DNA from: Nautilus pompilius
Lineage: Eukaryota; Mollusca; Cephalopoda; Nautilida; Nautilidae
Length of the DNA: 64,000 bases
Reading direction: 5' to 3'
Assembly: GCA_018389105.1 (NCBI GenBank)
Contig: JACATO010000052.1
Coordinates: 1,054,001-1,118,000 of the forward strand
The notes below the pieces were generated by a model. The model had not been told where the DNA came from and did no database searches. It was given only the letters and a program-made list of their open reading frames with translations. Made by a program: the position numbers and the translations under genes. Below, in pieces: positions 1,513-62,400 of the stretch (positions are counted from its first letter, which is position 1; every line of letters begins with the position of its first letter).

Positions 1513-1601
1513 TGCTGTTTCTTATTTGGCAGGATTAGATGTTACCGAACTGCTGAGGAAGAGAGGATAAGCGTTCAGCATCCAGCCCCACCCGCCGCAC
1601 G
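1513..1601 (+). promoter_or_regulatory. Desaturase 5' leader with likely 3' splice site and uORF
   Basis: A pyrimidine-rich tract followed by a cag at 1530-1532 looks like a 3' splice acceptor, so the leader may be spliced to an upstream untranslated exon. Positions 1539-1556 form a five-codon upstream ORF (ATG to TGA) in the same frame as the desaturase but stopped before it. The main ATG at 1602 has A at -3 and G at +4, a strong animal start context. Both the splice site and translation of the uORF are inferred. Confidence 0.45.
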
Positions 1602-31200: not shown

Positions 31201-34200
31201 AGGTTTTACAGTACCTACTTTTTAAACAAAAGAATTAACATTCTTTACAACCTACAAAAATTGCTTAGAATCTATTAAAGTCATAAAAACTTCAACCAAA
31301 GATAAATCTAAATGAAATATCTAAAATAGTGAGGGTTCAAAGAAAAGATTAACTGTTGCACCGTTTAAACTTATTCCGAAAAGTAAATTTGTCTTTGCTT
31401 TTAACATGCAGTCTCAGAATAACAACTATCATTTTAAAAATCAAACAATGTAGGTAAGAATGAAGCTCATCATTGAACTGCATTATAAATTAATTTTAAC
31501 TATAAAATGTAAGTCACTGGTTTTGTGAATCAATCAAATTGCAGGAACTTAATAAACCCACTAAATACTTCTAATACATACACTATATCAGTTTAATTTC
31601 TGCCCATGCTTTAATACCCAATTTAACCCCAAAAGTGTCCATTTTCTGCGTTCATAGATAATCCCAATAAAAATTCACCCTTCTTTAGGAATATTTCAGC
31701 ACATAATCTCTCAGAGAATCTTTGTAGGTAAAATAACTCTTCATCATTGCACTTAACTACTAAACTAGATGACCCGTGAACCCATAGGGTTCCCATTGTG
31801 ATAGCGGTTGATGACAAAAAGACGACACACAATTTTAATATTATCGAGTGATCAAACTTTAATTTTATGAAAAGTTGAGCATTTACATCAGGAGTCATTG
31901 TTTAATGAAACACGTGTTTAATCACAACATTCTTGGCAACCACGAAATTAAAACACCTTGTTGCTGCAGACTTGCCTATAACCTCCAGACGCCTCACGCT
32001 GTAGTCAAAATAACTGCCAAATCATAATGTGGCACCTAACCGCCAGATGGTTACTCCAGACAAAACAACCATTGGACGCCACAAAGTAGTCAAAATGACT
32101 GCCAAATCGTAATTTGGCAGGCTCGCTTAAGCAGCCATAGTAGCTTTGTTCTCGATTTCAGTCTACGTCACTGCTGTTGCCATTATTAGGATCCGCCTGG
32201 CGATTTCAGGATATTAAATTAGGACAAAGGACGCTCAGGCTGTATTCAAAATAACCGCTAGCCGCATTCTACATCACTGCTGTTGACCTATTAGGATAGG
32301 CCTTTCCTCATTTTCAACAAATTAGGACAAAGCATCTGCTAAATTCAAACACACGGTTTGCTAGTAATAATTACAAAAGCCTTAATAATTCCATTATTCG
32401 TTACCTGATTTAAACGAAACTTGCTACTGCACACTCCAGTCGGATGGTGAGTAAGGTGACCATAAAATTATAGCTCTTTCGTGCACTGTTTAGACAGAGT
32501 TTCAGGAACATACATACATACAAGATCAGAGTTTAGTAATATATAGATAGATGAAAACCAGCTAACTCATTTTGAATCATTTTCAGCCTACATCAAGGTT
32601 CTTTTCACCACCAGTCTGCACCAGCAAAATACAGATTGTTCATAATAGCTGCCTATTTTCTAATGTGCCTTCTTATCTACATATTTACAATGACCCCATC
32701 ATTCAAGAGATATTACTTTGTTTGGTAACACTTTAGAAAGTGCTTTTTGTTTGGTCATGTGATTCTTGCATTGCCCAGTATTTACCATATTAGGACTTTA
32801 CAACAATTTTTTCCCATGCATCACATTGATGGCAAGCTACACTATCAAGTTCAGGCTAGATGTCACAAACTATGCAAAATCTACAACTACTAAGGTGACA
32901 AAGAAATTTGGTGTAGGTAGAAAAAGAATTCAAGAATAAACATGATGAAAACTGATTATGAATCTTCCCAAGATAAGAAAGTGGCTAGGACAAAAGCTGC
33001 AAGATGTTAAAACAGATTAACTACTTTCAAACTGCTTCAACACCATACATAAAAGATGGAAGCAATCCACAAAATATAATGTGATGACTCAAAAAGTACT
33101 TCGTTGCTATCAGAAACATGGAAGGACAGCTCTCTATTTCAACATGTAGGGAAATACTACTAAGTACAAATCAGGGAAGAAACTCTTAATCAAAATAACT
33201 GAGCATGAAAAAGAGTCACATTGCTAAAAAATGATTAAAAACCATCTACCCGCTTCATTAATTCCCGCAGAAGTCAAGTCAGAACAAGCCTAGACAGTTA
33301 ATAAGGAAACACTACTGGCTGCAAAATGTGGGGTTAAAGGAGCATGGCAATAAAACAATGAGCCAGTAGTTGTGGGATAGCTGCAACTTTAGACTTTGCA
33401 AAAGCTTAGTATAACTGGCTGCTGTATTTTAGAATTGAAGCAAAACATTCAAGAGAAATGGGATATGTGGATAGTAAAGGAAAAGCACATTACACAGTGG
33501 CTGCATGAAAAAGAGCCACCATCACCACCACCACCACTTACTTCAGTGATCAAGTTTCATGACAAATGTACCAATGCTCTAGATAGCACACAACAAAGAA
33601 TTCGTTTTTCCAGGATAAGTGTCAGTGTGAAAGGCAGAAGCATACCATTTTAAGTCTAGTGATACAAATGTAAAACTAAGTGCAGTTAATGCATGTCCAT
33701 TCATGTTTGTCCCCCCCACCCCTTTCCAGGAATTTGCCCTTTTCAGATCACAATTTTCTTTCTTCATGCCTCATCCTTACTACATATCTTAGACTCTGGA
33801 TCACCTGCCCATGCCCCATGCACTTCTGATGTTAACATCAATAAATACACCTACTTTATAGCCTGTTAATGATTGCGTATCCAAACTTGTATCTACAATT
33901 GCCCCATAACTTACCTTTAGCAGAAGTCAGTTGGTATCAAGTATGTTCACTGTTACTTGGCTTGCACTATCATTGAGATATTTTCAGTAAAGTTCCTACT
34001 TAGCAATGTATTGACTGTTGCTATTCATAGGAAGGTTTGTTTAATTTTTTAGCAGACAGACTCTTTTGGCTTCAATAATTGTTCTCAAACAGCTTAAATG
34101 CCAAGGGACAATCAGCACCAATACAGTAATTTATAAAACGAAAAATCAGTAACATTCAATACACCAAATTTATAAATTTTCTCAAAAAAAAAAAAGAAGA

Positions 34201-38486: not shown

Positions 38487-41400
38487 ATGGCTTCGTCTGC
38501 GTCTACGCCGACTCTGCCGCCGAAAAAGAAAGAGGAATCGTTCCTCGAAAAGATCGGAACGTTGGCCAGGAAGAAGAAATCTAAGGAAGGTAAAAACCCG
38601 CGCTTGTGTGTGTGTTCGGTTAGGAGGACCACGTCTAGAGGGAGGGAGCCGGCCGGTCAGTTCGAGTTGACCCAGTCGGACAAGATGGAGGAGGGGGAGA
38701 CCAAATATGGGAGAAAAATTTCTTAAAAAATAGTTTCGTAGCAACAAGGGAGGGGGTTGTGTGGTTGTTTTTGTTTTGTTTTATTCACCCCCCCCAAACC
38801 CCCTCCTCCTCCTCCTCCTCTTCCCTTCTCCAGCCCCCGTTTCTTACACGAAATTACTGGCGTCGAACGAACGCTGATCACAGACAGACGGACGCACACA
38901 CACACACAAATAATTTGTAACTCGAAATGTTTCTTATTTGGCTACTGCCCGCACCTCTACCCACCCCCCCCACATATTTATTTAATTAATTTAGGAGGAG
39001 GGGGGGGGAATAAGGGAGCCAGAGGCTTCGCGACTGATAACGAAGAAGAAGAACCACTCACGGTCTGCCCGCCGCATTCTTAAAATGCCATCGACAGACG
39101 ATTACGTGTCGACTGAACAAAAACATCTCCCCCCCTTCGGACCGGTGGTACCTGTTGTTGGGTCCTGCAGTAACCTAAGGGTATATGTGGGGCCGCCACC
39201 GTGCCCGTGTTTTAGGAAGAGGAAAATTGTCTCTCCCTTTTTTTTTTTTTTAAATTTAAAATCAGGCCATCCATCCATCCATCCCAGCCTTTACGACTGA
39301 CTCCATCCAGCTCCGGCTCCATCCATGTTCTACTTTAAGGCACCGCCCTGAGGTTCGGTCTGCAGCTGCTCCCTCCATCTGTAGCCTGGTGATGTGATTG
39401 TATGGGGCTGGAAATGCACACTCACCACGCAGGACAAAGCCGTCTGTGAACCCTGTTTTGCGATCATCAAGATCTGCCATGGATCCCTTTATAAGACTTC
39501 CTGCCTCTCATGCTACACTGTGCTGTATTTGTTGTTAATTTATTTTATTTTATTTTATTTATCATAAAAATTCTCTCATTTCTAGTTACCGAGCTGCAGG
39601 AAGAAGGTAAACATGCCATAGAATCTCCTTCAAGCCCCACTGCTGTGCTGGATATTGGACCAGAGAACTACCTGCTGGGTGAGCATTGAGACAGGAGGGG
39701 GGGGGGGGAACCAGTATGGAAAACAAATGTTTGTGGTGCATAATTAAGCTGGAATAAAACTCCCATTAAGTTATTTAAAAATCTAAGCCTTACCCAACCT
39801 TGCATCCAGCTTTGTTAAAGTAGTTGGGAGAGAAAATATGCCTAATTCGTAAAAAAAAACTGAACACAAAGATAGCAAAACCTCAGTTTTTTAAAAAGCT
39901 GAAGGTGTTTTATTCACATTTAAAAATTATACTAGTTTTAGTTACTTGTATTTGACATCTAACAAATATATAACATTTTTCAGTTAGCCATTACTTTAAT
40001 AACATTAATATCAACAGGATCTTGAAATAACAGTAGTAATTTTTCTCTTTCATCATGTATAGTAATTAACTTATTTTCATACTGTATTATCTTATTTGCA
40101 TATTTTCAGTCCATGTCTATAATACTAAAGAGTTCTTATCTTGAAACAAAAATCCACAAGCAGTGTTTAAATTATTGAACTGATCAAAGTTCACTGTCTT
40201 TTATACAGTTAGTCTGAATTTTGTGTTTTGCTAGCCACCCGAAAAACTTAAACATGAATAGAGGTGCATATTAATTTTGTTCGTTAATGAAGTATTTTTT
40301 TTCTTTTACTAGTAAAATCAATTTACACCTCTATTCATATTTAATTTAATTTTTTTTTTTTGCCTTGATAGAAGTAAAGCAACTGGGTGTATAGTTAATT
40401 CAGACTTACTGACTAAGCTTCACTTTAGAGTTGTGACTTTTTTAGTTTGAATTTTGTCTTTGATTGCTTTGCTTAGTTAAAAAAAATTAAAAGAATTTTT
40501 TTTTTGAGGTATGGCTGCCATTTGTGTGTTGTTGTTTTTTTTGTTTCTTAAACTCTCTTATTATGTTTTGGGTTTATTTAACTCAACATTGTTTCCCATT
40601 AAGCTTAAAAGTTGCAAGATTTTAAAAAATCCTCTGATATTTTGTGACTTTTCTTAGTTTAGGATCATGAACATATTTAGTTTTTCTAGTACTGATCTTG
40701 TATACAAACATTATGACCTGAGACAATAGATATAACAAAAGTCTCAACATGATAATAGGATGGCTAAATTAAAATCTGTTTCTCCTGTTTTGAATCTGAA
40801 TTTCTTTTCTTGCTTTCAGAGGAAAATGAAGAACGATCGATGATTGATCCAGCATCTAGAGACGATCCAAAAGTGAAAGAGCTTATTCAGGTTTGTATCC
40901 AGTTTGAGAGTAATTATTTGAAAAATAGCAAATCTAAAGTTTAAAAGAAAATTATCTAAAATTTTAAAAAACAAAAAACTGACAAGGCCTAAGAGAAAAA
41001 AAAAAACAAGCAAACTGTTAAATAAAACTTTGCAATAATAATTAAATTGTATTGGTTTATAATGATAAATAGCACACAAAACCATTATGAGAAAGTAACA
41101 AATATTTCATTGCTACTTATTAGTTTATTATAATATTGTATAAGTCTAGGGATCACAAGGCTGCAATTTTACTATCATGTCATTTAAAAATTCTACAAGT
41201 CTGCTTTTTGCAGTGTGTAATCAGTATAACTTTATACACCATTTCTGCGGGGACATACTGCTTTGGTGGCACATTTGGATGAAAAGCTTTGTTACTGCCA
41301 CCACAAGTTCCTCTTAAACACAAACGAGGAAAAGGTGATGAAAAAGTACAAAAGAATGGAAACTGATTTTTATTAAAGGATACTACTAAAACCAAAGCAA

Positions 41401-44400
41401 AAATAATAATAATAAATTAATAATGAAAAAAAAAAACAGTTAAAAGTAAAAATGCTTTTAAAACTATTGCACTATAATATTATAAGCTTTGTCTTGATAT
41501 TCACAAATAAATACTGTTACATTTATTACACCTTTCCTAAATTAATAACATCTCAGTGCTGTCACTATATATTTGCATTTGCAGTATACTTATTTTTCAA
41601 TTTCTTCTAAATATATGGTAAACTTAGTGGAACAGTAAAAATATTAGCAACAAAAACAAAAAATCAAATTGTTGGAAAAAAGACAAAAGTTAAAATTATG
41701 CATATACATATATATATACATACCTGTTTTTTTTATAGTAATTTCTACAGAGTATTATTAACGGAAGATGAAATGAACATACCTTTTTAAATTGTCTGAT
41801 GTTTATTGCCACCTACATTTTTTAAAAAAAGTTTTGGTTATTTTCTATGGTTTTGGTTCTGTAAATAAGCAATACTGGACATGGGTGGTCCAAAGTTGGA
41901 ATTCTGGTTTGGACTGGCTCAGTTTGATGTACCCATGATTTTTTTCTCACTCTTAGTTGGTCATGTGGATTTCCTGCACACTCAAGTTTTCTCCCACATT
42001 TAAAAATGAATGATACTAGTAGTAGGGTTTCATTGTCTGGGCTGACACCTCTTCCATTCTGGGTTAGGCCTCTGTGGAAGTGTCTTGACCTGTAGACCTT
42101 ATTTTACATTAGAAAAGGAGGCTTCGTGCTTGCATTAGAGGTGTTGGCTGCTGCTAATGATGGAAGAATTATTATTATTATTAAAATTTTAGTACAAATT
42201 TCAAGGAAAGATGAAAATAATGAAAATACTCATTACACAACATAATTATGATGGTTATACATCATGGAATATGATTTGGCAAATTGTAGATAAGAATTTT
42301 CTTTGTTTACTGATGGTATCTAAGTTTACACGTGCTACTTCCTAGGTACTGCTGGACTGGATCAATGATGAACTGGCTGATCACAGAATTATTGTCAAGG
42401 ACATTGAGGAAGACTTGTTTGATGGGCAGATATTACAAAAATTAATAGGTAAGAATTTATTATTAATATTGAGATTTATGGGATTTTGCAAGGTTTTTAG
42501 CATTTGTTATTTAACTTCCAAAAGATGATTGTGGCTTCTAAAGATGAAGCTTGTTTTGTTTGTGACCATTCATATTTTGTAATAATCTTTTGAAACATAA
42601 ACAAAGAATCACTTGTAGTATTGTGTTTATCTGGAATGTTTCAGAGATATATTACATTTTCAAAATAATGTCTGCTGTAAAATTTAAAAACAAAAAAATA
42701 TAAACTCCTGCTGTCTTGAAAAAAAATTTTTCATTAGTTTGCAATGTGAAATAAAATACAGGTTGTGTACTGAATTTTCTATATCATCCTACAGCCAAGC
42801 GCATTTAACATGATCTCCAATTCCAAAGGATGCAAACGTTGCACCAGTGGGAGTGTTTAGCTTTTTAAAAAATTTTTTCTGATTATTCTGTTGTATTACC
42901 TTACCTGAAATTTCTAGTATGTACAAAGAGCGCATTTGAGTTGGTCATCTGTTTTGTTTGTGTGCAATGTCAATATTGAAATTGTTAAACAGGATTATTT
43001 TTAGGAAGATGCTGAAAATTCTTGTTTTGCTATTCAAAGCATTGGTAGAGCTTATTTAGAGTTTTTATTTCAGGTTTGGTCTTCTTGTTACAGATGTTGC
43101 TAAAAAGGGTTAAAGAATGATTTGGGCAAGGAAGAATTAGTTCAGAATATTAGTGCAGTTTGATGTACTAATCAATACATGTGAATTTAAATAAAGCACT
43201 TACAATTTTAAAAGGTTTGGAACATGTAAATAAATCTTGAATTGTTGTCATCTCAGGCTCACAGGGTACAAAGGACCATGAACTAAAACTCTATGAACGT
43301 AGTAGATTGGACATCTATAAGTGGTCTTTCAGTAATAGAGATGAATATATGGAATAGTCTTGTCTGGCAAAGTAGTAAAATTTGATAATATTAATTCCTT
43401 TGGATAGTTTGTTCAAAAGAACCGGGGAGGGGGGGGTTGCATGACATTCTGCTCTGCAAATTATTATAATTATCTATTATTCAGATTATTTGATTGTAAA
43501 ATTACAGAAGCTAAGTAATCTAAATGCTGAATATCAAAAAAAGAAAAGGTAAATGTTTTAAATTTTTTTTAAAAAGCTTGAAGTAAAGTAGACTGGTGCT
43601 GCAATTTTTGGGCTTTTTTTTTTCACAAAGAAAAGGGTTCAGTTAATTTTTTCCTCTCATTTTTAGAGTGTAGATTTGCTGATTAATTAATTGGTCAGTT
43701 ATTAGGCTTCATAACAGCAAATGGGAAACAGAAAGAACTGGAATATTGCTCCCTCTCTCTGTTTTCCACATTACACCAACTTTTATTATAGCACAAGCAG
43801 TGGCATCAATCTGGCTTGAAGTTTGGGAGGGGAGATGGTAAATCTCATAGGCATTCATTCAGTCACCGTACACATGTAGCCTATACCCACCCATGAGCAT
43901 GGGAAATTTTTCCCTCTTTCAACCCAGAATTAAGACTTGCACATAACAAGGTGAAACCCAAAACAAAGTAAAACAGGTCTAAAAACACAATTCAAAATTA
44001 AACACATTTATGAGACTAAAGTTTATCCAAAAAAAAAAAAATTTCTAATAAAATTGAAATCTTGAGAAGTTTAGTGTTAACTAATTAATACAGGTATATA
44101 TGAATCTCAATTAATACAAAAACTAAGTGAATTTAAAAGCTAAAATATTAAAAGCAATAGTGTTTTAGATTCAAAATCCAAAGGCTGTCAAAAATATAGT
44201 GAAAATTTCTTACCTGAAATCAAACTCCTAAAGATTTCTCTGTTAAACCAATGGAAATGTCTTTACAGTTTTCCTACTTTGAGAGATTTCTTTATTGCAA
44301 AGCTTGCATTTAGCTTCGATGGAATCTTTTTTTAAATCATAAGATAATTCCATACAGGTGGAAGTTCAGTTAGCTTGCTACAGTTTGAACTCTATAGCCA

Positions 44401-47400
44401 AGCAGCATCTGAACAAACTGACCAGCCCTAATATTCAATTTTCGGAATAACTACCGACCATAATATAGGTTTTATGGCGCTCATGATTAATTAACTATTG
44501 TAGCGTAGTGGCTAACAAAGGCCAGCTACAGTTGTTTACCTTTCCTATGGTGGCTCTTATCACAGTAACTCCTAACAGTGATCTCCTATACTGCTCATGG
44601 TCTCTAGGTATTGTTGCTAAGAGAAACAGGATCACAATGGCAGGTAATATTTTAAAGGACAATTACTTGTAATAGCAATTCCTGATCAGTCAACACATAA
44701 TTATTCATTCTTAGTGATGTTAAGCAAAAAGCAGTGGAGAGGCTTTCTGTGTCATGCAAATCAGACTTTAACACCACAGTGGTTGTTTACATTGAAATAT
44801 GCAAAATAATCAAAACAGTTTTAGATCAATTATTTTTTTTAATTGGCTAATAATAACACTGGTCAACAAAATTAAATGTATTATACTCATTATGAATGCA
44901 AACCAACTTTTTTAGACTAATTTTTTATGCTGATTTCAAAATTTCACTCTATTTGTATGCAGCACGTATCAGTTTTTCAGTAGATACATGCAAATATTTA
45001 CATATTTGTATATATGAAATCATTAACGTAATAAATAAGGACCTATTATTTTTAGAAAGTAAATGAGTTTATTGAGTTAAAAATCATCACTATCATTCTA
45101 CAAAGAGTGAATACACAAAAAATGGGTCAGACAAAACAGACAAAGTTAGAACAACAGAGTTAGAAACATTGGGATTTGGATTTCCTGCGGTATTCCTGAT
45201 CTGGTTGATCACGGTAAAGTGTCCAGCAGTAGTCAGCCAGCATACTGTCATTCCAGAAGCCTTGGTACCGTTTCTCCATAGCACTAATGTCCTGGTGAAA
45301 TCTTTCACCATGTTCATCAGATACTGCTCCAAGGTTATCTGCAAAGAACTCCAGATGGGAGTCCAAGAAGTGAACTTTCAGTGACATGCGACAACCCATT
45401 GCTGAGTAACATTTCAGAAGATTCTTGATGCCATCCTTGTAGTCCATTGCCTTCTTGTTGCCCAAGAAATTCTCACAGATCCAATTGAAAGCATTCCAGG
45501 CAGGCAGTTCCAGTTCATCCAGTGTTGTCTTGAAGTTGACATCTTTGAGTACCTCTATAATTTGGGGTCTGACAAAGATACCCTCTTTCAACTTCGCCTA
45601 TGTGATTTTGGGAAACTTTTCTACAATATACTCAAACCCTCTGGCATTTCTCTTTCCTAGTGTCTTTACAAATTGTTTTATCAGTCCAAGCTTTGTGCAA
45701 AGGAGGCAATAGGACATTACATGGATCTACAAGAGGTGTATTCTTGACGCTAGACAGTCCTGGCTGGTATGATGTTCTTGTCTGCCAGTTTGATTCCGAA
45801 TAATGTCTGTCAGTTGCCCGACTATCCCATAGACACAAGAAACAACAGTATTTTGTGAAACCTGACTGCATTCCCATTAACATTCCAATGACTTTTAAAT
45901 CTCCACATATTTTCCATGAGTATCTTTCATAGGCAATGGCATGAAGTAAAAGTTCCATATTCTCATCTTATTGAACCAGTCACGTAAGCCATTTGAGCAA
46001 GCTGAGCAGATAAAATGTGGTGCCCATAACTTGTCCTGATATCCAAGAGGACAGTCAAAGTATAGCTTATAAATCTTCTTGATCTCTGGTGTTATTGTAC
46101 GTTTTTGAGCTTTCACAATAAATTGTCCACAGACACAACAAAACACATCAGGAAGATTTCTACACTGTCTCGACATTGTTAACACTGTAAAACAAGTAAG
46201 GAAATAGATACAAACGGTTATACTTATATTGAATTTGAGATGATGAAATATTTCATCAGACCAATTATCACTGGACAATTTGAGATGTTGAAATACCTAT
46301 TTCATCAGACAAAACTCGATTGGTTAATTTAAGATGATGAAATATTGCATCTGAACTATGCAGCAATGAATAATGTAGTTTATTTTAAAGGTATGTTTCC
46401 ATGATGTAAATGAAATACATGCATACGCGTCATTAATTGGAATTTCTATATAATGCATGAGCTAAAACCAAAAAACTTTCTCATCTTGAAAACTGTACAT
46501 GATGTCAAAAAACTAATTGTATATTTGAAATCAGCATTAAAAACTACACTAAGTACATCCTTGACATATGCTTGATGAAAAATACTTGTTGACCAGTGAC
46601 TCTGCACTGATCATCTTTGATTTCAACCATCTTTTAAATATTTTTCAAAGTATATGCATCTGTATGTATCTTTATTTTTTTTTTCTTCTTTCATAAAAAC
46701 AATATATTTGCAGACTGTTGCAATATATCACAAGTTCTCAAATTTTATGTGAATAGTAATTAATTATTCATAGTGTTTTTATTTTTAAATTTTCATTTGC
46801 AAATATATTTTTGTTAAGATTTTGGGCAACTGGGTAAAATTTGGACACAAAGTTTCATGTACACATCTGTCCCATTAGTAAAGAGGGCAAGTCCTTTAGA
46901 CTTATTCATTTTCCTGCTTGTGATGATATTCTCTGAACAGAAATAAATTTTTGTCTTCTCAGAAGAAGCAGATAAAAAATTCTGTTATAAATTTTACTAA
47001 ATGACCAATTATCTCAGCAAATTAATTGGAAATTGGCAAATCCTAGTTTAGACAGAAACCCAGTGTATTTTTACTTAAGGAGTTTTATTCAAGCTGCAAA
47101 ATAAATTGGATGGATTATAATTTCAATTCATAAGGGAAAAACTTATCTGATTGATTTTTGTTTAATGTTAATTGTAGAAAAGCTGGCAAGAATCAAAGTT
47201 GAAGTTCCAGAAGTCACTCAGTCTGAGATTGGTCAAAAGCAAAAACTGCGTGTGGTGCTGGATGTTGTTAACCAGATTCTGAATGTGCCCTTGGCATGGA
47301 ATGAGAAGAAATGGAGTGTGGACAGTATGTTTCTATAAGCTACAAAATATTTCTTTATGAAACATTAACTTTGTCAGAAACTATGTCTTTGTTGATCAGT

Positions 47401-50400
47401 AAATCAGAAAATCTGTATGCACACACACACATATATATACTGTATATACAAGTGGAACTCAAAATCTACTCAATGTAATGCACTTACTATAAATACTTTG
47501 AGGACATTTTGGTAGGTTCTGTTGAGTTAAGTAAATATAGTTTGTGATCTTTTTCATGCTGTATCAGGTGCTCAGTTTTGTATGAAAGGAAAAAAGAAAA
47601 AGAGACTTGCTACAAATCTAAATAATTCAGTTGAATGAAGAAACATTTTTTGCACATGTTTGTAACAATAATTTTGTGCAGTAATATTCTTAGACTCAAA
47701 TGTGTCTGCTGTTTCTCTAAAACAGTTTCATTAGAAATATTGTTGTGTATTTAGAAAACAATTTTTTAAATCAAGAAAATGTACAAAATTTTGATTCTAT
47801 TTAATTGTGCATTACATTTTCTTTATTGAAATGCTTCTCATGAGATATAACTAGTTACATAACTGTTAGATACATGAGTATAAATAAAAAGGATTTTGGA
47901 TAAATCCATGACATAAATGAAAATGGCTGATTTACAGTCTGAAGTAAGTATAGCAGCTTCACTTTTATGTAATTGCAGTTATTTTATTATCAAGCAAGTT
48001 AATCATCTAGAATTTAGTCAGAAGAATTTATTATTGGAGTATTGCAATATATGCACATTATTATTATTATTATTATTATTTTATTATTATTTTATTATTA
48101 TTTTAAAATATATTTTTACAGGTATCCATTCCAAGAATTTAATAGCTATCCTGCATTTGTTAGTTGCTCTAGCTAGACACTACCGACCACCTATAATCCG
48201 ACTGCCTGAAAATGTCAGCATTTCTCTTGTGATTGTTCAGGTTTGTATGGATGGGTGTTATGCATTTTTTACTACTATTAATTTAAAATACTCAAATTGC
48301 AGAAGTTTTGTGATTTTGAAAAGTATGCTATTCATTAGCATTAGAATATGCACACAAAATTCAAATTATTTAAGTTTATGGCATATATCTTATAATTGTA
48401 AAATTCTGTAATGAGTGTTTATCTCTCACCCTCTACCATTTTGTATTAATTTGAAAAACTGTTTAAAAATTATTAATTTCTGAATCACCAATACTTAGAA
48501 AATAAAGGGCAATGATAGACCATGCTTTTATGGTATGCTTAATGACTATTGGCTATACACATTACATAGTTATAGTTTTATCATCAGTTGAGTTAATATC
48601 CTTTAATAATTGCAAAATGCTGATTTTTTAAAAAATTTTTTTAATATACTGAATAGTCCATGAAAAATTTTAGTGCAAAAGAATTTTAAAAGCACCTTTT
48701 TACTTTTTTTTTTTATAGAGGAAACAAAAATTTAAATTAAAATTTTCCAAAGGATGCAATAGAAGTAAAAAATATGTGATTTGGAAAAGTAAATAGGAAG
48801 TTTGGAGGCTTGAATGGTTTCATTTATTTCTAGAAACGTGATGGAGTTCTGTTGCCCAGAAGAGCACTGGAAGAAATTACTGGCATAAATGAGTGAGTTT
48901 TTAAGTGTGTAATTTTGTATAAATGTTAGTGAGATTACTTTCTTTAGATTATTCAACTCTCAGGTTTTTATATGTGAAGCAGATTTACAATATAGCTTTA
49001 CAAATGAGACTGATTTATTATTCTGTAAAATGAGTAACACAATTTTGCATTATGTGAAATGGACCAAAGAGAATTTTCTTCTTAATGTTGCTGGTTGAAT
49101 AATTGATGGTATTGCATTGAAATTATCACACTTTTTTTTTAATTTTTAAAATTTTCACAAACTGAATCAAAATAAAATTTTAGTGTTGTTTAATGAGAAA
49201 TAAATTATTTCAAAATTTTTCAAAATCAGTTCAGAGAAATGTTGCTGCAGTTGTTACAGCTTTTATAGTATAATTGTCGATTTTCACAAGTGCTTGATAA
49301 TTTGATATATATTTGTAGTTCAGGTAAAGAAAGTTTTGGACTGAGAACAAAAGTATTTGTTTTATTCAGTTAAGCAGTTTTCGCAACTCTTTCAAAATTT
49401 CATTGTAATCATCAAGGAAAATGATCACAGACTTTGAATTGATCATTTATTTACTCTACTTTCACCCAAGATGGTGTTTCTAAAGTAATTAGTTTTCAGT
49501 CTCTGTCAGAGAGAAGATTCTTTCTACCAGGTTTGTTTAATAAATTTTTTTGGTTCCTTTATAAAAATTGTTTCACTGTTAAATAAGATCTACAACTATG
49601 AATTTTTAGTTTAACTATCATTAGCAGGCTAGAAGTCTTCATGTCTTAAACAATTCCCCAGGAAAGAAAAATTCATATCAAAACAATTTTAAAAATTGAT
49701 TTACATTATTGCCAGCAATTGTTCCATTTATTATTCTTATTAATTTTTGTTTCTAATATCAAGCAAATTGTGCTGAGTCAATTATTAATTATAGGCCTTA
49801 GTATTAGTGACTGAAGATAATTGAAACATTTAGCTTAAACTCTAATTATTTCAAAAACCTTTATCGGATTACCTCTCATATGTCTAAAGCAAGATGAGGT
49901 AACTCTAATATTTTTACTTTTTTTTGCATATTCTAATTGCTGGAAACATAGTATTCTAATCTGTTGGAAAACATAAACAAATTTACAGGTGTGGGGAAAC
50001 AAAAAGACCAACTTTTAGTGAAATTAAGAGAGCAGTGGCAAAAATGTGATTCTTAGAAACTGTATATGTTACAGTATACACATTTAGTTTAAAGCTGTTA
50101 GAAGTGTATGATGTGTTTGTGGATGCAGATTAATGTTTGTATAAAAACTTACTTTAAAATAGTAATAAGAAGCTATTTTATGGCAAGCTTTTGGAAAATG
50201 ACCAATTTCTGAAGAGGCTCACAAAGGAAATCAAAATAGCAGCATAGGTAAAAAAAAAGAAGATAAAATGACAAATTGTCAACTATTTACTGACAGAAAA
50301 AGTATAGAAGTAGTTTTCATGCCAAAATATACCAGTCAGATTGTAGGTGAAGTAAATTCTTTTATCATAGGCAGTTAATGTATTGGAGGACTTTCTCATT

Positions 50401-53400
50401 ATTCTAAATTAAATATTGATTTGTCTTTTTATCCTTAAATTTGTTGTTGAAATTTTTAATCACCTTAGCAATTTTGAATCAAAAACATTTAAAATTATTT
50501 CCTTGTGTTTTTTGAAATTAATTAAATTAGTATTTTCTTTTTTTTTCTTGAGAAGTCAAAATTATGACTTAATTCAGCTTTAAATGTTTATTTTATTATT
50601 GCAATTAATTAAACTAAAAGCATTTTTAAGAAATACTTTAAAAAGAAAGAAAAATTAATCAAATAATTGAAATAATTCTTTTTATATTGTCTACTTTTGT
50701 GAGGACTAGTACTATTTGCTCAATTTAAGGAATGCTCTTGAAGATTCTCACTTCTTACAAGGGATTATTTATTTATTTTAGTTGGGTTTAGTTTAACATT
50801 TAAATTAATTATTGGATATTAGTTTGATTTTAATTATGCTTTAGTCGATAGTGCACGACTGGAAAATAGCTTCCAACTAATAGCTGTTGTTACTGTTGCC
50901 TCTTGATAAAGAAAAAAACTACGTCATATATTTTTGTTTTTACATTAGTTAACTAGAAAGTATAACCTGCCTTTAGAATGTTTTAAGAACGAGACTTTTT
51001 AATAAAAATCTGACAGAATTTTTTATTCTGCTCTAATATTATTAGCTATTTAAAAACTTTTCCTCTACAAACTATTTAGTTAATTTGAAGTACTTTCCTT
51101 AATTTCATGCTACTGATATGCTGCAGATGTGGAGGTTCCCTTCTGGCAGATTTCACTAATGAAAAATACCCAAGACACAGAAATTCAGACTATAACATTT
51201 ATTTTGTGATTAGTAATATTCTGAAGTATGAAGCTTATTGACAACTTTAAAAAATAAGTCTTTGATAAAATTGTATAAGTGATTAATATTTCATCTTAAA
51301 AAAAATCTACACATTTGTTGTTTTATCAGAATTTTGATATAATTAAGCAGATTTATCTAGTTTTGACCTGTCTGCTTTTCAGGATGTTTGATATTGGGTA
51401 AGAATTGCTTTTCCGCTGGTCATGTACCCCTTTTCCTGCCAGGTTTCTTTTTCATTCTTTCTGTTTTTTTTTTTTGCATGTCTGATTGGTCAATGGTGAC
51501 CACCACTTATTACATCATCAGTTACCCATGCTACCACCTCTCTTCTCATGTTTGATTCTCAACTGAGGCTTGACTTGTCTCATTGCTCTGTCCTGATCTT
51601 GAAACTACCCGAATTATCATGTTATTATCTGCTGCTTAGCAGCATATTGTATCAGACTGTAGAGGTGTGGAGAAAAACAAGTTAACTGTTTGTAAATTTA
51701 ACTGGCACTGAAATCATTACAAAAGCAAAAAGAAAAGGCAAACAATTGCTTGTATAGTCAAACATCTTTTTCTGGTGATATTGATATTAACAGTAATTAG
51801 TGATGCATTTTTTTTGTTTTTCAGGCTTTTATTTTTTAAAATCTTTTACATATTTTAACTCTTTACTCTTAGGTCCTTCAAAGCGGTGTTGATTTTTGGG
51901 TTATTTTTGTGGTTATTGGGTCAAAGAAAAGCAGTGGTTCAGACCATTTTATTTTATAATGTAAAACTTTCTGACCATTTTCTAAAATATTGGCATCCTT
52001 TTCAAGATTGGGTATACTCCAAAAGTGGCCTAGAGTATTTAATTTTCAAAATTCTAATGATTTGTAGTGCAAATAATGTGTGATTTTTGCAGCTTTAACA
52101 TTTATACTCGTCATGTAATGCTAGCACACAAAAATGTTTTGCTTAAAGATTGCTGTTTACATAAGGAAATTCTTAACTAAATATTTGATTATTTTTTTTA
52201 GATAGACTGACTTAATAGTCAATATTAACATTTTAGTTCATGGAAAGTGCTCTTCTAAATTTGTTCCTGTAAAAAGTAGAATTGGTTTAGGTAATGCTTT
52301 TCTTGGATCTCTGTTTTCTCTTTAAAAGTGCACATTACCTGGTATGCTTGGTGGATTTTTCTTTCTAAAAATTATTTTAAGATTTTTAAACTCAAAATTT
52401 ACACACACTTTCTATCTTGTTTTTTTTTAATATACAAATTTAATTGCTCAAACAAGAAATAAGAAAATGTTTAAAACTAAGTCTGCACACCAAAATGAAA
52501 TTAATTGAAAAGAAAAATATTGATATCAATGAGTTCAGGAAAGAAATGCAGAAAAGAGTTTTCTGTATATGTATTATCAAAAATATGCTTAATCAGTTTG
52601 TTTCTTTTTTGATGCTTGCATTTATTTTATTATTTCTGACTTCTTATGGAGTTGACATACTGTTTATCAGTCAAGGATAGATAATGCTTGAAAGATTTGT
52701 TACTACTACCTTGGTCTTATTACATCTCACTGAAAACTGTATTGATCAAACCGATGTTATGTATTGCATACTTGAATAACAAATTTTACAAGTCATTTTA
52801 GATATGTCTTTTCTTCTTTGTTTAAAGTAATGGATGGTTTAGCCTCCTCTTTTTTTTATTCATTGTCTAATTTAGTTTCAAAATTACAGAGACTACATTA
52901 CATGTCTTTCCCCCACTCTTTAAAAAAAAAATCTGTGTTTAATATAAATTTTGGAATTTTTTTTTCAAAATAAATATATTTTTTAAAAAAAACAGTATAT
53001 TATACTATTTTTAGATGATGTTTGCAGTTTGTTTTCTATCATAGCCCATAACAACTAGACATCTTGCTGCTTTATCCCATATCTGACCATGTTACCTATA
53101 CTAACTGTCACATCAATTGTTTGACTGTACATCTTCCTTTTTCAAGGCATGATTAGTTTATTAATCACTTCTGTGACATTTTTACTAACATCTAAGACTT
53201 TGAATTGAATAACCTTGAATTTATTTTAATTCATTTTTGTTGATGTCATTTTGGTGTCAGATTTTTGACATTTTTCTCTAGTATAATGTAGTGAGCATAT
53301 TAAATGTAGGTTAAGTATTGAAGTGCATACTTATTGTAGCTTTATAGCAAGCAGTTTGTTATTGTTTATAATGTGCAGTTTATGTAATCAGAAGTTGATT

Positions 53401-56400
53401 TTATGTTGTATGACATAGGGTTTTTCCTAAATATTTGAATTTCATGGTTTTTAAGAGTTTCCTATAATAAAAACAATAATAAACTGAAATTTATTCTGAA
53501 AATTCATCTGAGACCATAAAGTACAACTGTATGGCATTAAAGGTTTTATAAATTAGTTTAAATAAAGTGAAAAAGAATTTTTTCTTTGTTGCTGGCATTG
53601 AAAATTATTATGAAATTCATTCATTGTGGGAGAAATCCTAACTTTACAGTGCTAATATCAATAATATTGCATTGTTGTATGGATGATGGTTGTATTTAAT
53701 ATTGTGCTATAGTAGGCTAGAAGTCATTGTGTGCTGTGTATGTTGTATATTAGTTCGTGTGTACTTTTATTAAATTGAAGTGGGTAATTATACTGTGGCA
53801 TAATAGAATATTCTAATGAAGTATAATTCATGTCTTGCATAGTAGTGTTGTGTACTGAAGTAGTCATTTTTCAGATTCTGATGTAGTGCACTGCCATTTA
53901 CTTTTATTTCATGTAGCATGAGTTTAGAAAGTGTTATAGGTGCATTTACTATAGTGCACATCAAGTAATGTTTGTACTACAAATAGACATGAATCCTTCA
54001 TGAGTTTTATAAAACGTCTGTATCAGAGGACTGTAAAAAAGCAAACAATCTTAATCCACTTCATTTCATCAAAATAAATAAATAAAATACTTGTTCCAGT
54101 TATTATTAAACAACTTTTAGAGTATAATTCTACTACTTCTTAATCATATGCAATACTGTTTTTTTTAGAGAACTACACTAGATGATGTTTGATTTGCTGA
54201 GTGAATAGGTAAAATCAGTTTTATCTATTTTATTTGATTCTTTAATGTTTTATTTTTCAGAGACATTGGTGCAAAATCAGGTAAATTTTTTTTTAATTTC
54301 AGTAAAATTAACTTTGTAAAGGATGTGCTTATATTCTTAGCTAAGTGTAATTTTTTGCAAATATAAATGTTTTGGTGGGAAAGAACAAATTTCTTCAATT
54401 ACCTATCTATCTATTATGTTACTCTTTACAGTACCTAATTAGCTGGCTCTGAAGCCTGACTTTCTTTCATAACAACACTTCAGAAAACAGATGGTTTAAT
54501 AAGACTTTATGAAAACTGAGATCACAAACAAAGGTTAATCTGTTACACAGAAACAGTTGATGGAGTTGGAAATTGTGTTTTAGTATTTTCTTAGTGAGAA
54601 ATAAATAAAAAGTATGAGTCAGAGGTTGGGTATTTTAAAAAATGACATCATTTTTCAGTCTGTCTCCCACTCTCTTTCTTCTCTTTTCTTTAACCTTTGC
54701 ACTCAATTGGCTGGTAGGTTAATGTAGTACATGATGAGCAAGTTGTTCCTTGTGTTACGTATGGTTCAGTCCCAGATGAACTTATGATATGTTCACTGTC
54801 TAGCCAGTGGTGCCAGCTTTGCCTGGCTTTTTTCCCACCATTAATCCAAAGCACTTTAGTAGGTTTTTTCCCTGCTATAGTCTGTAGTTCTTGGCCTGCT
54901 TACATGCAAACATCACAATACCATGCATTTTTTGCACACTTGGCTTCAGTTAATTCCATGTAAACAAATAACAGCAAAATGTGTAGACCGTTATAATGCT
55001 AACTCTATCTCCTGAAAAATGAACAACAACGAAATATATAGGATGAAGTTCAGTCTGTATAATTTCTGTTTGCTAAGATAATTTATAAATTATTTTACAG
55101 ATAGAGATGCATTTGATACACTCTTTGACCATGCTCCTGATAAACTGAACCTAGTTAAAAAGGTAAGAACTACCCCCTACTGAAATTCAGAAGCTATATA
55201 TATTGCATTAAGTTTATAGTTACATATGGTATTAATTAAATAAACAAACTTTGGAAAAAAATTAAAAAGTTTTTTCATTTTCATTTTTTAAAATTTGTTA
55301 GGATTTTAACTCATATCTTTCACAATAGTAATAAAAAATCTTGTTCATTTTCCTGATATAAGGATTTTTAATAGGATAAATATAATATTAACAGAAAATA
55401 AGAAGTGTGTACAATTATAAATTTGACTATGAATTGCTAGTTTAGATCTAAAAAAGGGTGTTTTTGTATTTTAAAATTTATTTTTAGAATTTTATTAAAA
55501 AGTAAAGATTTTCTTTAATATAAAACAACAAAACAGAAATTTAAAAAAATTTAGATATAAATCAAGAGAGAATTGAAGTTTATTTTTTTCTGGATTTTTT
55601 TTTTTCTTGAATCATTCTATTAGACATATTTATGATTCTTGTTTCTAATATATGTCTAAAAGCATTAATTAATATATCTTGAGGGCTGATCATAAAGTTT
55701 GCAGAAATTTTTTTTTTTTAATTGTGCAACTGTTTAACAAGAATCATTATTGGCATGGAAAAATATTGTTGTAGTAACATAACACCCACAGCAGGATTTT
55801 TTAAATCTCACTAAGTTAGTTAATGTACACCAACTGATTTTAATAGAAGCATACCATGCAATTTCACCACCATAGTTACATTCTTACTCAGCAAGTGCTG
55901 TTGCTGGGTCTTCTGTTTCTTTATAGTGCTTAAATAATGTAATTTTGCAGGCTTTGCCCAAACAAAAGGTTTTCTAGAGACAAAGGTTTTGGAACATTGA
56001 TGCTTTGACATGAAGCATTTCTTCACCGAGGATGAAATTTTGCTTATTTAATTTTTGTTGTTGTTTTCAGACTCTTGTGACATTTGTTAACAAACACCTG
56101 ATGAAAGTTAATCTTGAAGTCTCAGATTTGGATAGTCAGGTAAAGTTGAAATCTTTTAATTGTGTTGATTTTAAAATGGTGGCTAAGTTATGCAACAAGT
56201 TATTAATACTATAATGTCAAATAACTGAGCTGTAAATATACTGGAAAATATTTTGTTGTCTCAAAGGCAGGTACTAGGATAAAGATAAAGGGAAAATAAA
56301 ATACAGTGAAGTCTCACTTAATACGATTAATCTGTGCCTGAAAAACAGTTAAGTAAAATATAATTTCCAATAAGAATACATGTAGGTAGGTAGTGATGCG

Positions 56401-59400
56401 AGCCGGTGGATGAAAAGAGAGAGAAAGAAATGAAAAGTAACATAACAATTAAGTATCATAAGCTCTAGGGGTCCACCGCACGATACACCATTAAGGTTTT
56501 AGGTTTGTTTTTTTTTTCGTCTTGGGAAATATAAGTTCTGTTTGGCATATTCCAGTATAATGACCACCTGTTTATGGCTATAACCACCATCAGCTATAAT
56601 TTGTACCAGTGGCGAGGCTACAGGGGGGGCAGGGGGGGGCGACCCCCCCTGGTCGGATTTTGGTACCGTCGGTCGGAAATTTACATGTTGGAAAAAAAAT
56701 GTTCTTCACTAGCGCTATTATTTCACAACTATCACATCATTGAATTAATTCACCTGCATCAAAATTTGTCTCCATTATAATGGTCCCCGATAATGCTATT
56801 ATGTACAGTACATTTTTTTTCCAACATGTAAATTTCCGACCGACGGTACCAAAATCCGACCAGGGGGGGTCGCCCCCCCTGCCCCCCCTGTAGCCTCGCC
56901 ACTGATTTGTACCAGCAAATTATGGAAACTTTTGGCTGCATTTTAATCGGCCATGACTGCTACTCCTGTCACTTTTATGTTGTGTAGATTAAACCACTTC
57001 TTAAAACGGAAAACCCATCCATGTCAGGCCTATTACAACTAATCTTGGTAGCACTCACTGATGTAGCACGCAGAACACTTGCTTTTATCTTATCCACATT
57101 TGAACGGATAGTCTGGCACATTGCTTCATTCAGCCCCATCACATGAAATATCCATTAGTCTTTCACCTTTCTTAATTGCTCAGTGACTTTCAATTTTACT
57201 TCCAAAGAGTAACTTTTTCATTTCATTTTCATTGCTGAAGCACTAATATTCTCTTTTTTTCTTTTTGGGCCCATTGTTATTAAGGGATAAAAACGCAATT
57301 TGGTAAGTGATGGCTCACTAGCTATCATGGAAGAATATCAAACACCGTCCCTCTTGCGGACTACTTTGTCTCGCGGTTGGATCATGTTACAATGAAACAT
57401 TGCTGTGTAAAGTTAATTTTATCCCCTACTTTGTAAATCGTGTGAAGGGAATTCGTGTTAAATGAGACTTTACTGTATAAAGATGCAAAAAAAGAAACTG
57501 AATGACACTTAACTTATTTTTATGAAAATAATAAAGACACTAATTTTTTTTGTTCATGTGATCTTGGTCAAGGTTAACTTTAATAGGTAATTGTCAGAAC
57601 AAAATCAAAACATATTGACACTTAAAAATTAATCTGCCCATTTTTAATGAATGAATAATAGAAAATAAAAGATCATTGTACTCATTAATAGATATATTTA
57701 ATAACAGTGTATTGTATCATGAAAATCTAGATAATTCTATTTAATAGGTTATAACTCACTATGAACCAGTAGTATTATCTTTCACTGTCAGTAATAAACT
57801 ATCTCTCTCCCTTTAATAATATACAAATAAAGGTACACTAAAATGTCACCTATAACATTGTTGGTTACCAGAAAACGACAGTGCCATCTACAAGATTTTT
57901 AGTATCGTAAATTCTGCCTTTTTAAAATTTACTTACCAAAGCAAATCACTTTACTTTTTGTTGTTCTGAATTTTTGTCAAAGGAGTTTTCACTCATTCCA
58001 CTTGATATGCTGATTTCACATCATTGCTTTCATCACTGGAACTTGAAGAACTTCACTTTTGTTTGAGCTTTTGAGGGTGCCACCCATAAGATTGTTGGTG
58101 TTTTTCAGTTTTTCTTTGTGGAGAGAGAGTATGGAGAGAGAGTATAGTATAGGTGGCATTTTAGTGTCTGTATATGACTGACTGTTTACTCAATATAAAT
58201 AATTTTAAATAATTTCTGTCATCGTTTTGTCTTCAATCTACATTTTATAATTAATCATTCACATACACTTTCCTAAATTCTATATCTGCTTATGTATTAA
58301 GTAATTGCCATTTTTAAAATAAATTTTTTCATTTTATTTTCTTATGCTGCTACCTTATGGAATATTTCAAGGGAGACAATTTTTAAAAAGGGGGGGTGTA
58401 TGTTTATAGATTAGCTAATTCTTACTTTATACCACTAGCCTAGAAGCACTGTATAGTAATTGTGTTGAATTGGTTGTATATTTAGGAAACAAATTTGTAA
58501 TACAAAACGTGCTGGTTTTGAGTGATAAAAATTTGTTTACTAAGGGATATGCTAATGAGGAAGGTACATAGCTTCTAAGGCTCAATCTGTGCTGAGTAAT
58601 ACAGTAATATTAATTTATTCCAGCACCAGGCCAAACTAGTGCAATTTATCACTGCCGTGTGGCACTGTGAACCAGTCACCTTCTCACATTTGCCGGTGAA
58701 CATTTGGATATTTAATACTCTGTGAAAACTTTTTATATTACTTATTTCTCCAATAAACATTCATCTCATGATATTGTCAAATAATATCTTTTCAACTAGC
58801 TGTGGAATGAACAGAAAGAGACTTTTGTTAACATTAGCACTGTACAACCATACTTCGTTTAGTCATACTGGTACTGTACATAAGGAAACCACCATCTGCT
58901 ACATGCAGTACTGTCTATTATGATTTATTATATATTACTATTATAGGTAAATTATGTCTGTTATTTAACTATTGCATATACTTGTGTATAAGTCAACCTT
59001 GCAGATAAGACAAGGCTAAATTATTGTAGAATATTGCTTATCTAACCTATAAGTCAAATAATTTTGGCCATTTGCTGAAATATTTATTATTTTCTAAATT
59101 ATGAGAAGTTGACATCATTTGTCACCCAATAACTGGTTCTATGGTGTATAATGCCACAAGTGCAAACAAGTTGACTGATACTTTTCCTTTAGTTTAAATA
59201 ATATTATATTCGATGGAATAATTAATTTATTTTTTAGTTTTTATATTTTCAGCTTCCAAGATAATGATCAATCATATGACTGTCTTGTTGATATAATATA
59301 ATATTTATTAATAATTTTAAAATACCATAATTTTTGTGATTTATCATAATGATTGATAATAACACTAAAAATGTCTACTATTTAAACTTCTATCTGAAAT

Positions 59401-62400
59401 TAGTAAAGGTATACAATATTTTCATATTCAGGTACTGGTAGTTATATTATTATGTAAGCTACCATAAATTAATATAATTCGAAACATACTGATAAATATC
59501 TAAAAAAATATAAAAATCAAACTATTTTGACATTGATCCTTTATTATCACTCATTTACTTAAACTTGGAGGTGACAGCAATGTGTTTGGGAAGTCAGGGA
59601 TTTGGTCGTCTTTTGCAGATAAGATTAGGCAAGATATTTTGACTATTTTGAGGAAAATTTCTCCAATTTATGGTATGTGGATATAAACAGCACATTAACT
59701 AATCTGGCACCTATGCATTCTTATACCTGCTGGATTAAAGGAATTATACTGTACAGTTTGACAGGTAGTGGGGTTACCCAAGGTGGTATACAGATGGCTA
59801 ACTAACTACCTTAATTCTTTCCTAGTCTGCAATGTCTCCATGAGAAGAGCAAAAAAAAAAAAAAATGAGTTAGAAAAAATTAGTGATGATGAAAAAAAAA
59901 TGCAGTTTCTCTCAAGTTGTAGTTCAATTATTATTCTTAAAATTATCTCAATTTTATGAGTAATATATTAACTCTATTTTTTAAAATAAATATTAAGCCT
60001 AGTGTTTATATGAATAATGCTTTTCAGTAAATGACTTGTATCCATCTAATGAAAGATTTTTTAATGGTACCCAGATACATTTTATTTAAAGTTATAAAGT
60101 TACTGAATTTACAATCTTGCCTGTTTTAATCTGTTTTCAGTTTCATGATGGGGTTTACTTACTGTTACTCACTGGATTGTTAGAAGGATATTTTATTCCC
60201 CTATACAGCTTTCACCTGACACCTACCACTTTTGATCAGAAGGTAAGGAGCTTTACATCATCTTGGTTTATGGAAGTATTCAGATTTTGAAATTTTAAAT
60301 GGCAGTAATAAAAATTTACTGATGTAAGTACATAACCTACCAGATGCTGAATTAAAATACTACTGCTTATTTAAGGGAGTCAGTAAATCACTTTCCTTCA
60401 TTAAGTAAACAATTTTGAAATGATATTACTAAAATAATTTTGGAAAAAAAATGAATGTAATGTTTGAGATCTATGTTCATTAATATTTGATCTTTTTTGT
60501 TAAATCACAGTGCACAAAGATAGACTTAACTGATGATATATTAACTGGATTATTGCTCTCATTATAACTAGAAGATAAAATTCTAGAGTTAAATCCTATT
60601 TTCAGAGACTTCCAGAATTTTTGATAGAGGTATTAAAAATATTAGCATAAGGACTTTAGATATCGCATGTGTGGAACCACAAATATTTATTCCTTTATAC
60701 CTTGCTCTATCATAAGTAACATAACATAATCCATTGATAATTTTAAATTAATTTTAGTCATTTTAAACAAGTGTTTTGTGCAACAAAATAAGATGCTGTG
60801 ATAGAGACATTATTCTAAAATTTTCAATTAGATCAGCAAAGGTGAGATTCTAAATATATATATCATTGAATTCTCATAAATTTTGTATATTATATTTGCC
60901 ACATTCCTTTAAGGGAATCAAAATTTTCATCTGTTACATATTTTCTATCTAAATCATTATAACAATTTCTTTTAATTGATTGATTAGGATTAATATTATA
61001 ATACTCACCAAAAACTGAAAGACCTTTTCTCCTAAATGTTGAATCTGTTATATGAATAAATTTTACAGATAATAGATTAGAAACTAATTTATCTTGACTA
61101 TCATCCATAAATTTGAATGAATCTAAACATTTATCAATTGGTTTATTGTTGCTAAATCTAATATAAACTTTCTTTTTAAATGAAAAGATATATATTTCAG
61201 CTATTTATGGTATAACAGAATTGATTTTGCAACAATTTTAAAAAGAGATGAGCAGCATAATTAGATAGATTATGAAATATAGCTTAAGATTTGGATATTT
61301 AAATTGTAAATCACACTCATTATGAGCTGCTTCTCTAAGTTTTCTAATAAAATGGCAATATCTTCTATTTTAAACTGATTTTCATAATATGACTGAGCAG
61401 GGTTTAAAAATATGTTTATCCAAGGAGTAAAAATCATCTCCAGGAAATTAAACAATATAAATATTATGAACTTTCTCTTTAATTTATATTGAAAAGTTTT
61501 GGTAAATTCTGAATCACTACATTGATATTAGCTCTGTAAATAAATGGATGAAATTGGTATTGGTGTACAATAGGAGACTAATGGTGCTAGTGGCTCTGTC
61601 CCACCATAGCAGCACTTGTGTAGCTGCGCAGAATAGGTGATGCAGCAAAAGTCTCTACCAGAACTCTTCATTTTTAGATGTGAGATGAAACTCATGTGGC
61701 CTGCTGATGAAGAAGAGTAAGAAAAACCATGGCAGAGAGATAGATCTTAGCTGGGCTGATCTCTGGGAATAGAAATTGGGAGGGCCCTCAACCTTAGCAG
61801 TCAAATAGTCTACCACTGGACTACTGTGCTGCTCAGATGAAATTTTTGTTGATTTTATTATCTTACAATATATTTTAATAGTTGTACTATTTTGTTAAGT
61901 GTTCTATTCTCAGTAGTTTGCTTTCAAAGTCTTTATAAATCTCAAATGGACTATTAAGCTTAACTAAGTTATTATTACATTTTAATGTTGTTAGATTTAG
62001 TTTGAAGCTTTGGTAAAATAGATCTGTTTTCCATGCATGTTAATTGATGAATTTTAAATTTATTTTCATTATTAAAATTAATCAGACAAATTTTACATAG
62101 AAAAGCTTTTGTGTAATGTTAACTCAGATCTAACTAATCTTGATAGATTTTCAAATTAAAGTTTAATGATAATTATTTTCATTCTTTAAAGAGGAAACCA
62201 ATGTCTCTTAGCTAATTGTGAGAGTATGAGGAATTACTTCCTTTTTTCTTCATACATATAAATATTAACATAAATATTATTATTAATCTCAGATTAAAAA
62301 TATGGTTTACAACAACAGGTTAAATTATTCCTATCATATCTAATGTTCATATCATATAGATTTTGAAAATCTATAAGGATATTGTTTTCAATTAACTGGA

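Follow-up and report, generated by a model that had tools for sequence, protein, structure and literature searches.

A candidate 15-nt optional microexon in the CH1-CH2 linker of a Nautilus pompilius parvin gene

Does the parvin gene of Nautilus pompilius carry an optional exon of five codons in the linker that joins its two CH domains? The question is raised by a 15-nt block within the window, i.e. the whole 64-kb stretch of DNA analyzed here (contig JACATO010000052.1, positions 1,054,001 to 1,118,000), whose own numbering is used below. An earlier note had described this block as an in-frame cassette microexon of the CH1-CH2 linker, located beside a constitutive 20-nt exon. This description is backed by the linker of most homologues, which has the 19 residues of the skipped form, and by an octopus parvin with an insert at the aligned position. 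We consider that the block at 51383-51397 is a genuine optional (cassette) parvin microexon with a probability of about 0.72.

Eleven recognised exons on the plus strand encode a protein similar to animal parvins.

38487-60242 (+): parvin gene as far as found
38487-38589, 39586-39678, 40820-40890, 42346-42448, 47178-47324, 48122-48240 (+): parvin exons 1-6
48834-48892, 54261-54280, 55101-55162, 56071-56139, 60141-60242 (+): parvin exons 7-11
48834-48892 (+): exon upstream of the block, ending in ...EEITGINE, with a weak donor (TGA/gtgagt, score 4.58)
54261-54280 (+): 20-nt exon (DIGAKS), taken as constitutive
55101-55162 (+): next exon, where the CH2 N-linker helix starts (DRDAFDTLFDHAPDKLNLVKK)

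The CH domain profile PF00307 was matched with 75.9 bits over residues 88-194, and the CH2 part had no listed Pfam match. Alpha- or beta-parvin accounts for six of the seven PDB matches, five of which fall in the CH2 part, and the named proteins among the matches listed are mostly parvins. Judged by its sequence, the predicted protein has two CH domains of parvin type, as expected for a parvin gene. The last coding exon or exons, for the C-terminal part of CH2, were found neither in the rest of the window nor in the 40 kb beyond, and a genome search with an octopus parvin (P0077, described below) detected none elsewhere at E <= 0.001. Several open frames lie on the minus strand within a parvin intron (45096-46296); three of them were scanned and gave no Pfam match. 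An inverted repeat is present at 56607-56904, with arms at 56624-56705 and 56807-56888 that are 95% complementary, 101 nt apart and extend outwards.

The block is situated in the 5,368-nt intron between exons 48834-48892 and 54261-54280 and is in phase with both. Its coordinates, its bases and its phase were found to be those given in the earlier note.

51383-51397 (+): candidate 15-nt microexon GATGTTTGATATTGG, adding MFDIG, phase GA/../A
51369-51382 (+): microexon acceptor region tgtctgcttttcag, with TGC at -10 and the preceding AG at -24
51398-51403 (+): microexon donor gtaaga

In its context, cttttcag/GATGTTTGATATTGG/gtaaga, the block has the size of a microexon (3-27 nt), is flanked by AG and GT and has two splice sites whose scores fall within the range of the parvin gene itself. 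The reading frame is kept whether the block is included or not: inclusion gives the open spliced translation ...EEITGINE-MFDIG-DIGAKSDRDAFDTLF, and skipping gives ...EEITGINE-DIGAKSDRDAFDTLF, which is open as well. The junction would hence be INE-MFDIG-DIGAKSDRDAF if the block is spliced in and INE-DIGAKSDRDAF if it is left out, and the five added residues that had been predicted are indeed MFDIG. If the 20-nt exon is left out, the frame is lost whether the block is present or absent, which rules out that the block replaces this exon. A longer exon starting at the same acceptor can also be discarded, since a stop codon precedes the next GT 3' of the donor.

In order to evaluate the strength of the splice signals, sites were scored with generic frequencies blended with those of parvin's own sites, the latter being scored leave-one-out. 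The acceptor of the block (9.39) ranked fifth of 11 when placed with ten parvin acceptors (2.8-11.5), and its donor (9.05) fifth of 12 with eleven parvin donors (3.0-11.0). Both thus rank in the better-scoring half of the parvin sites. The signals had been called ideal; they are good, but with a fifth rank each this term is too strong. The block is the sole AG..GT pair of 3-27 nt in its intron with both sites this strong. The next best one, a 21-nt pair at 49510-49530 (+) in the same intron, has a sum 2.2 bits below that of the block.

Chance expectation was estimated from a further 220 kb of this genome, read on both strands, a set that may contain real exons. Six pairs reached the summed score of the block, two of them with a length divisible by three (3n) and none of 15 nt, and no pair passed both single-site thresholds. 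At this rate, 0.073 pairs with such a sum are expected in the intron of the block (0.024 with 3n length), and about 0.9 (0.3 with 3n length) if a whole strand of the 64-kb window is taken. Three were observed on the plus strand of the window (the block, the 20-nt exon and 18754-18768) and none on the minus strand. The pair at 18754-18768 (+) is also 15 nt long, has a similar summed strength and lies within no recognised gene. Because about 0.9 such pairs (0.3 with 3n length) are expected per window strand, the signals are suggestive but not conclusive, and on their own they leave the status of the block unsettled.

The end of the block had been said to echo the next exon. The likeness exists (GATATTGG and GACATTGG), yet an equally good match to the 20-nt exon is given by 483 of the 1,754 windows of the intron, so the likeness carries no significance and the block can be ruled out as a duplicate of this exon, the match being at chance level. 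A transposon origin was likewise rejected: the 401-base neighbourhood of the block (51200-51600) had a single match, itself, in the 727.6-Mb assembly of 2,558 contigs, in a search that skips very common words. Compared with 310 kb of the genome, the neighbourhood gave, besides itself, only matches of 18-20 bases (E 0.36).

Elsewhere in the window, a plus-strand region (29292-30886) contains reading frames in pieces, of which 29593-30222 matches HTH_Tnp_Tc5 and DDE_1; by its sequence it is a pogo/Tigger-like transposon. A 382-codon open frame at 1557-2702 (+) matches FA_desaturase with 107.5 bits. Three C/D snoRNAs, one SNORD33 and two copies of SNORD34, were detected on the minus strand above the Rfam gathering scores (21261-21337, 28772-28848 and 31407-31482). 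Their presence suggests that a snoRNA host gene may lie on this strand; in vertebrates, the host gene of SNORD33 and SNORD34 is RPL13A.

The sequence downstream of the block has the following features.

51475-51480 (+): TGCATG, an Rbfox-type motif 78 nt 3' of the microexon, sole copy in the 5,368-nt intron
51398-51697 (+): downstream flank of 300 nt, GC 0.39, with seven YGCY (MBNL-type) motifs

The GC content of this flank (0.39 vs an intron mean of 0.275) is reached by 1.4% of the 300-nt windows of the intron, and so is its number of YGCY motifs; the most GC-rich 300-nt window of the intron begins at 51373. The corresponding flanks of the eleven recognised exons range from 0.22 to 0.33, except that of exon 1, which is richer than the flank of the microexon (0.52). 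An RNA gene in the GC-rich flank was ruled out, as an Rfam scan of it gave no match at gathering score. TGCATG occurs 0.36 times per kb in the background (220 kb, both strands) and was found within 300 nt downstream of none of the eleven recognised parvin exons; no Rbfox motif is present in the 300 nt upstream of the microexon. The QKI-type motif ACTAAY is absent from the 300 nt downstream and occurs once upstream, at 228 nt. These motif tests, like the test of similarity between MFDIG and ELLDDG given below, were chosen after the data were seen.

Two known regulatory systems were compared with this arrangement. According to excerpts of PMC12064062, RBFOX2 bound in the downstream intron promotes inclusion, and the regulated microexon of Snap23 (neurons, muscle) is, like the parvin block, a very short in-frame cassette with an Rbfox motif in the downstream intron. 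In Snap23, however, the downstream intron has two motifs each for RBFOX2 and QKI and the upstream side has none, whereas the parvin block has a single TGCATG. This copy (51475-51480, at +78) places a (U)GCAUG in the nearby part of the intron downstream, as in Rbfox-promoted cassettes. The neuronal eMIC (SRRM-type) programme of flies and mammals, as presented in part of PMC8797185, also involves short in-frame exons with a TGC near the acceptor, and the parvin block has a UGC near its 3' splice site (TGC at -10). This feature is not discriminating, because the acceptors of two ordinary parvin exons (40820 and 42346) contain TGC too. In the same excerpts, the acceptors of fly eMIC exons are weak, their upstream donors strong and the zones free of AG long, unlike the parvin block with its strong acceptor, its weak upstream donor and an AG at -24. 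On account of these three differences, Rbfox-type control is preferred to an eMIC-like one. The TGCATG at 78 nt is compatible with such control and is no proof of it.

The linker was then compared among homologues. Three protein searches (1,617, 1,694 and 130 matches) yielded 270 different proteins among the matches listed, at most 120 per search; 25 of them were dropped from the linker count as their flanks were missing, leaving 245. All are cluster representatives, so other isoforms may be hidden behind them. Among the matches listed, the segment EEITG..RDAF has the 19 residues of the skipped form in 234 of the 245 homologues. Four of the 11 others are shorter (P0096, P0240, P0248 and P0256) and seven are longer: P0050, P0059 and P0090 (21), P0135 (22), P0139 (23), P0077 (27) and P0232 (38). 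In P0059, a single residue falls in the alignment gap at the position of the block. In the bird alpha-parvin models P0135 and P0139, other residues, which end in FS, take the place of those that the tiny exon encodes; these are perhaps gene predictions that missed the tiny exon.

The most informative homologue is P0077, alpha-parvin isoform X1 of Octopus sinensis (374 aa), which reads SSHE-ELLDDG-DMGARIG, with ELLDDG aligned where MFDIG would enter. P0090, isoform X2 of Argonauta hians (368 aa), reads SSHE-DMGARIG and has no insert. The two proteins differ in length by exactly six residues, X1 and X2 being from two species. P0050, the cluster nearest to both, also has no insert, which is hence found at the aligned position in one of three coleoid-like clusters; it was not seen in other molluscs among the matches listed, as far as cluster representatives tell. 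The octopus insert resembles the MFDIG predicted for Nautilus in its position and in its hydrophobic-hydrophobic-D-x-G pattern, and differs by its length (six residues vs five), by the rest of the linker, which is two residues longer, and by being available here as protein alone. When MFDIG was compared with ELLDDG less one residue, against open 15-mers of the parvin introns, an equal similarity was reached by 31 of 1,376 G-ending 15-mers and, when 15-mers of all kinds are taken, by 53 of 12,979; both counts include the block. For 15-mers followed by GT, it was reached by two of 703, the block among them. Homology between the block and ELLDDG is plausible on these grounds, and the block may well have its octopus counterpart there; ELLDDG itself would be encoded by a separate microexon. 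A protein search for transcript fragments returned none from Nautilus pompilius among the matches listed, the best full-coverage identity being 66%.

A parvin tree placed the sequence of the window inside molluscs (support 99/93). The best tree joined it with bivalves at a support of 66/32. Constrained to group with the three cephalopod rows, the sequence loses 0.41 log units (p 0.40), and constrained to group with gastropods 4.9 (p 0.07); the first placement is not rejected and the second barely escapes rejection. Few residues are shared with a single group: two are found in one or more cephalopod rows, four in one or more bivalve rows and none in gastropods, so that rare shared residues favour no mollusc group.

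How should the block be interpreted? Given the similar insert of six residues in an octopus parvin, placed at the matching point of the linker, the block is probably a genuine optional exon. The weak donor of the exon upstream and the lack of an insert in P0050 count against this reading. The block could also be a decoy: in a long AT-rich intron, an AG and a GT may stand at exon-like spacing by chance and be passed over by the spliceosome, in which case the octopus insert would have no relation to the block. The expectation of about 0.9 pairs of 3-27 nt this strong (0.3 with 3n length) per 64-kb strand, the similar 15-nt pair at 18754-18768 and the transcript-fragment search with no own-species match are in line with a decoy. 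We regard it as unlikely in view of the 0.024 pairs of 3n length expected in this very intron, of the octopus isoform insert at the aligned position and of a downstream flank that holds the intron's sole TGCATG. That the exon is constitutive, i.e. always included in this species, is very improbable: its two splice sites score higher than the parvin median, but the linker would exceed that of 234 of the 245 homologues, among the matches listed, by five residues, and the octopus insert belongs to an isoform X1 and is missing from the related Argonauta X2.

Within the optional-microexon reading, and with overlapping probabilities, the exon might be a lineage-specific gain in the same intron, independent of the octopus insert. 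The identical aligned position and the similar hydrophobic-hydrophobic-D-x-G make us doubt this variant, although five residues stand against six, the residue similarity is modest (31 of 1,376 G-ending 15-mers are as good) and the tree does not place the sequence with cephalopods. More tentatively than the optional microexon itself, we can also conceive of an old, cephalopod-wide parvin microexon that predates the nautiloid/coleoid split, is under Rbfox/MBNL-type control and tunes the CH1-CH2 tether of ILK-PINCH-parvin in muscle or nervous tissue, as a splice switch of integrin adhesion unknown in other animals; this broader reading is possible and short of probable.

If the block is an optional microexon, some transcripts would include it between the ...INE exon and the 20-nt exon and thereby add MFDIG to a flexible inter-CH linker; others would skip it and encode the standard animal linker. 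A Rbfox-type factor acting on the TGCATG 78 nt downstream would most likely promote inclusion in chosen tissues. The likely effect would be a longer tether between CH1 and the ILK- and paxillin-binding CH2. An AlphaFold2 model of octopus isoform X1 (mean pLDDT 81.5, 70 aligned sequences) is consistent with this location: the insert (230-235) overlaps a low-confidence stretch (231-244) between a strand that ends at 223 and a helix at 247-254. Its counterpart in human alpha-parvin is the N-linker helix (249-256), which, in the part of PMC2572193 consulted, helps to form the paxillin LD site. In the protein of the window, the last residue of MFDIG would lie nine residues ahead of the N-linker helix. 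The spacing of CH1 and CH2 or the access of partners may be affected. Altogether, we infer inclusion of the block in RNA, its regulator, its effect on the protein and its homology with the octopus insert.

No description of this exon had been known to the earlier note, and none was recognised in the parts consulted of the literature on parvin splicing, on the parvin linker and on mollusc, octopus or cephalopod microexons. Parvin, mollusc and octopus are absent from the consulted part of the main text of PMC8797185, the sole parvin match in that of PMC9839350 is an author's name, and no description of the parvin exon was recognised in that of PMC3561323. If real, the block would act as a splice switch within one of the core proteins of integrin adhesion, beside a paxillin-binding helix and in a linker whose length is otherwise nearly fixed (234 of 245 homologues, among the matches listed). 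It would also illustrate that exons this small, which are easily missed by gene finders, may be recovered from a genome sequence together with the isoform proteins of a relative.
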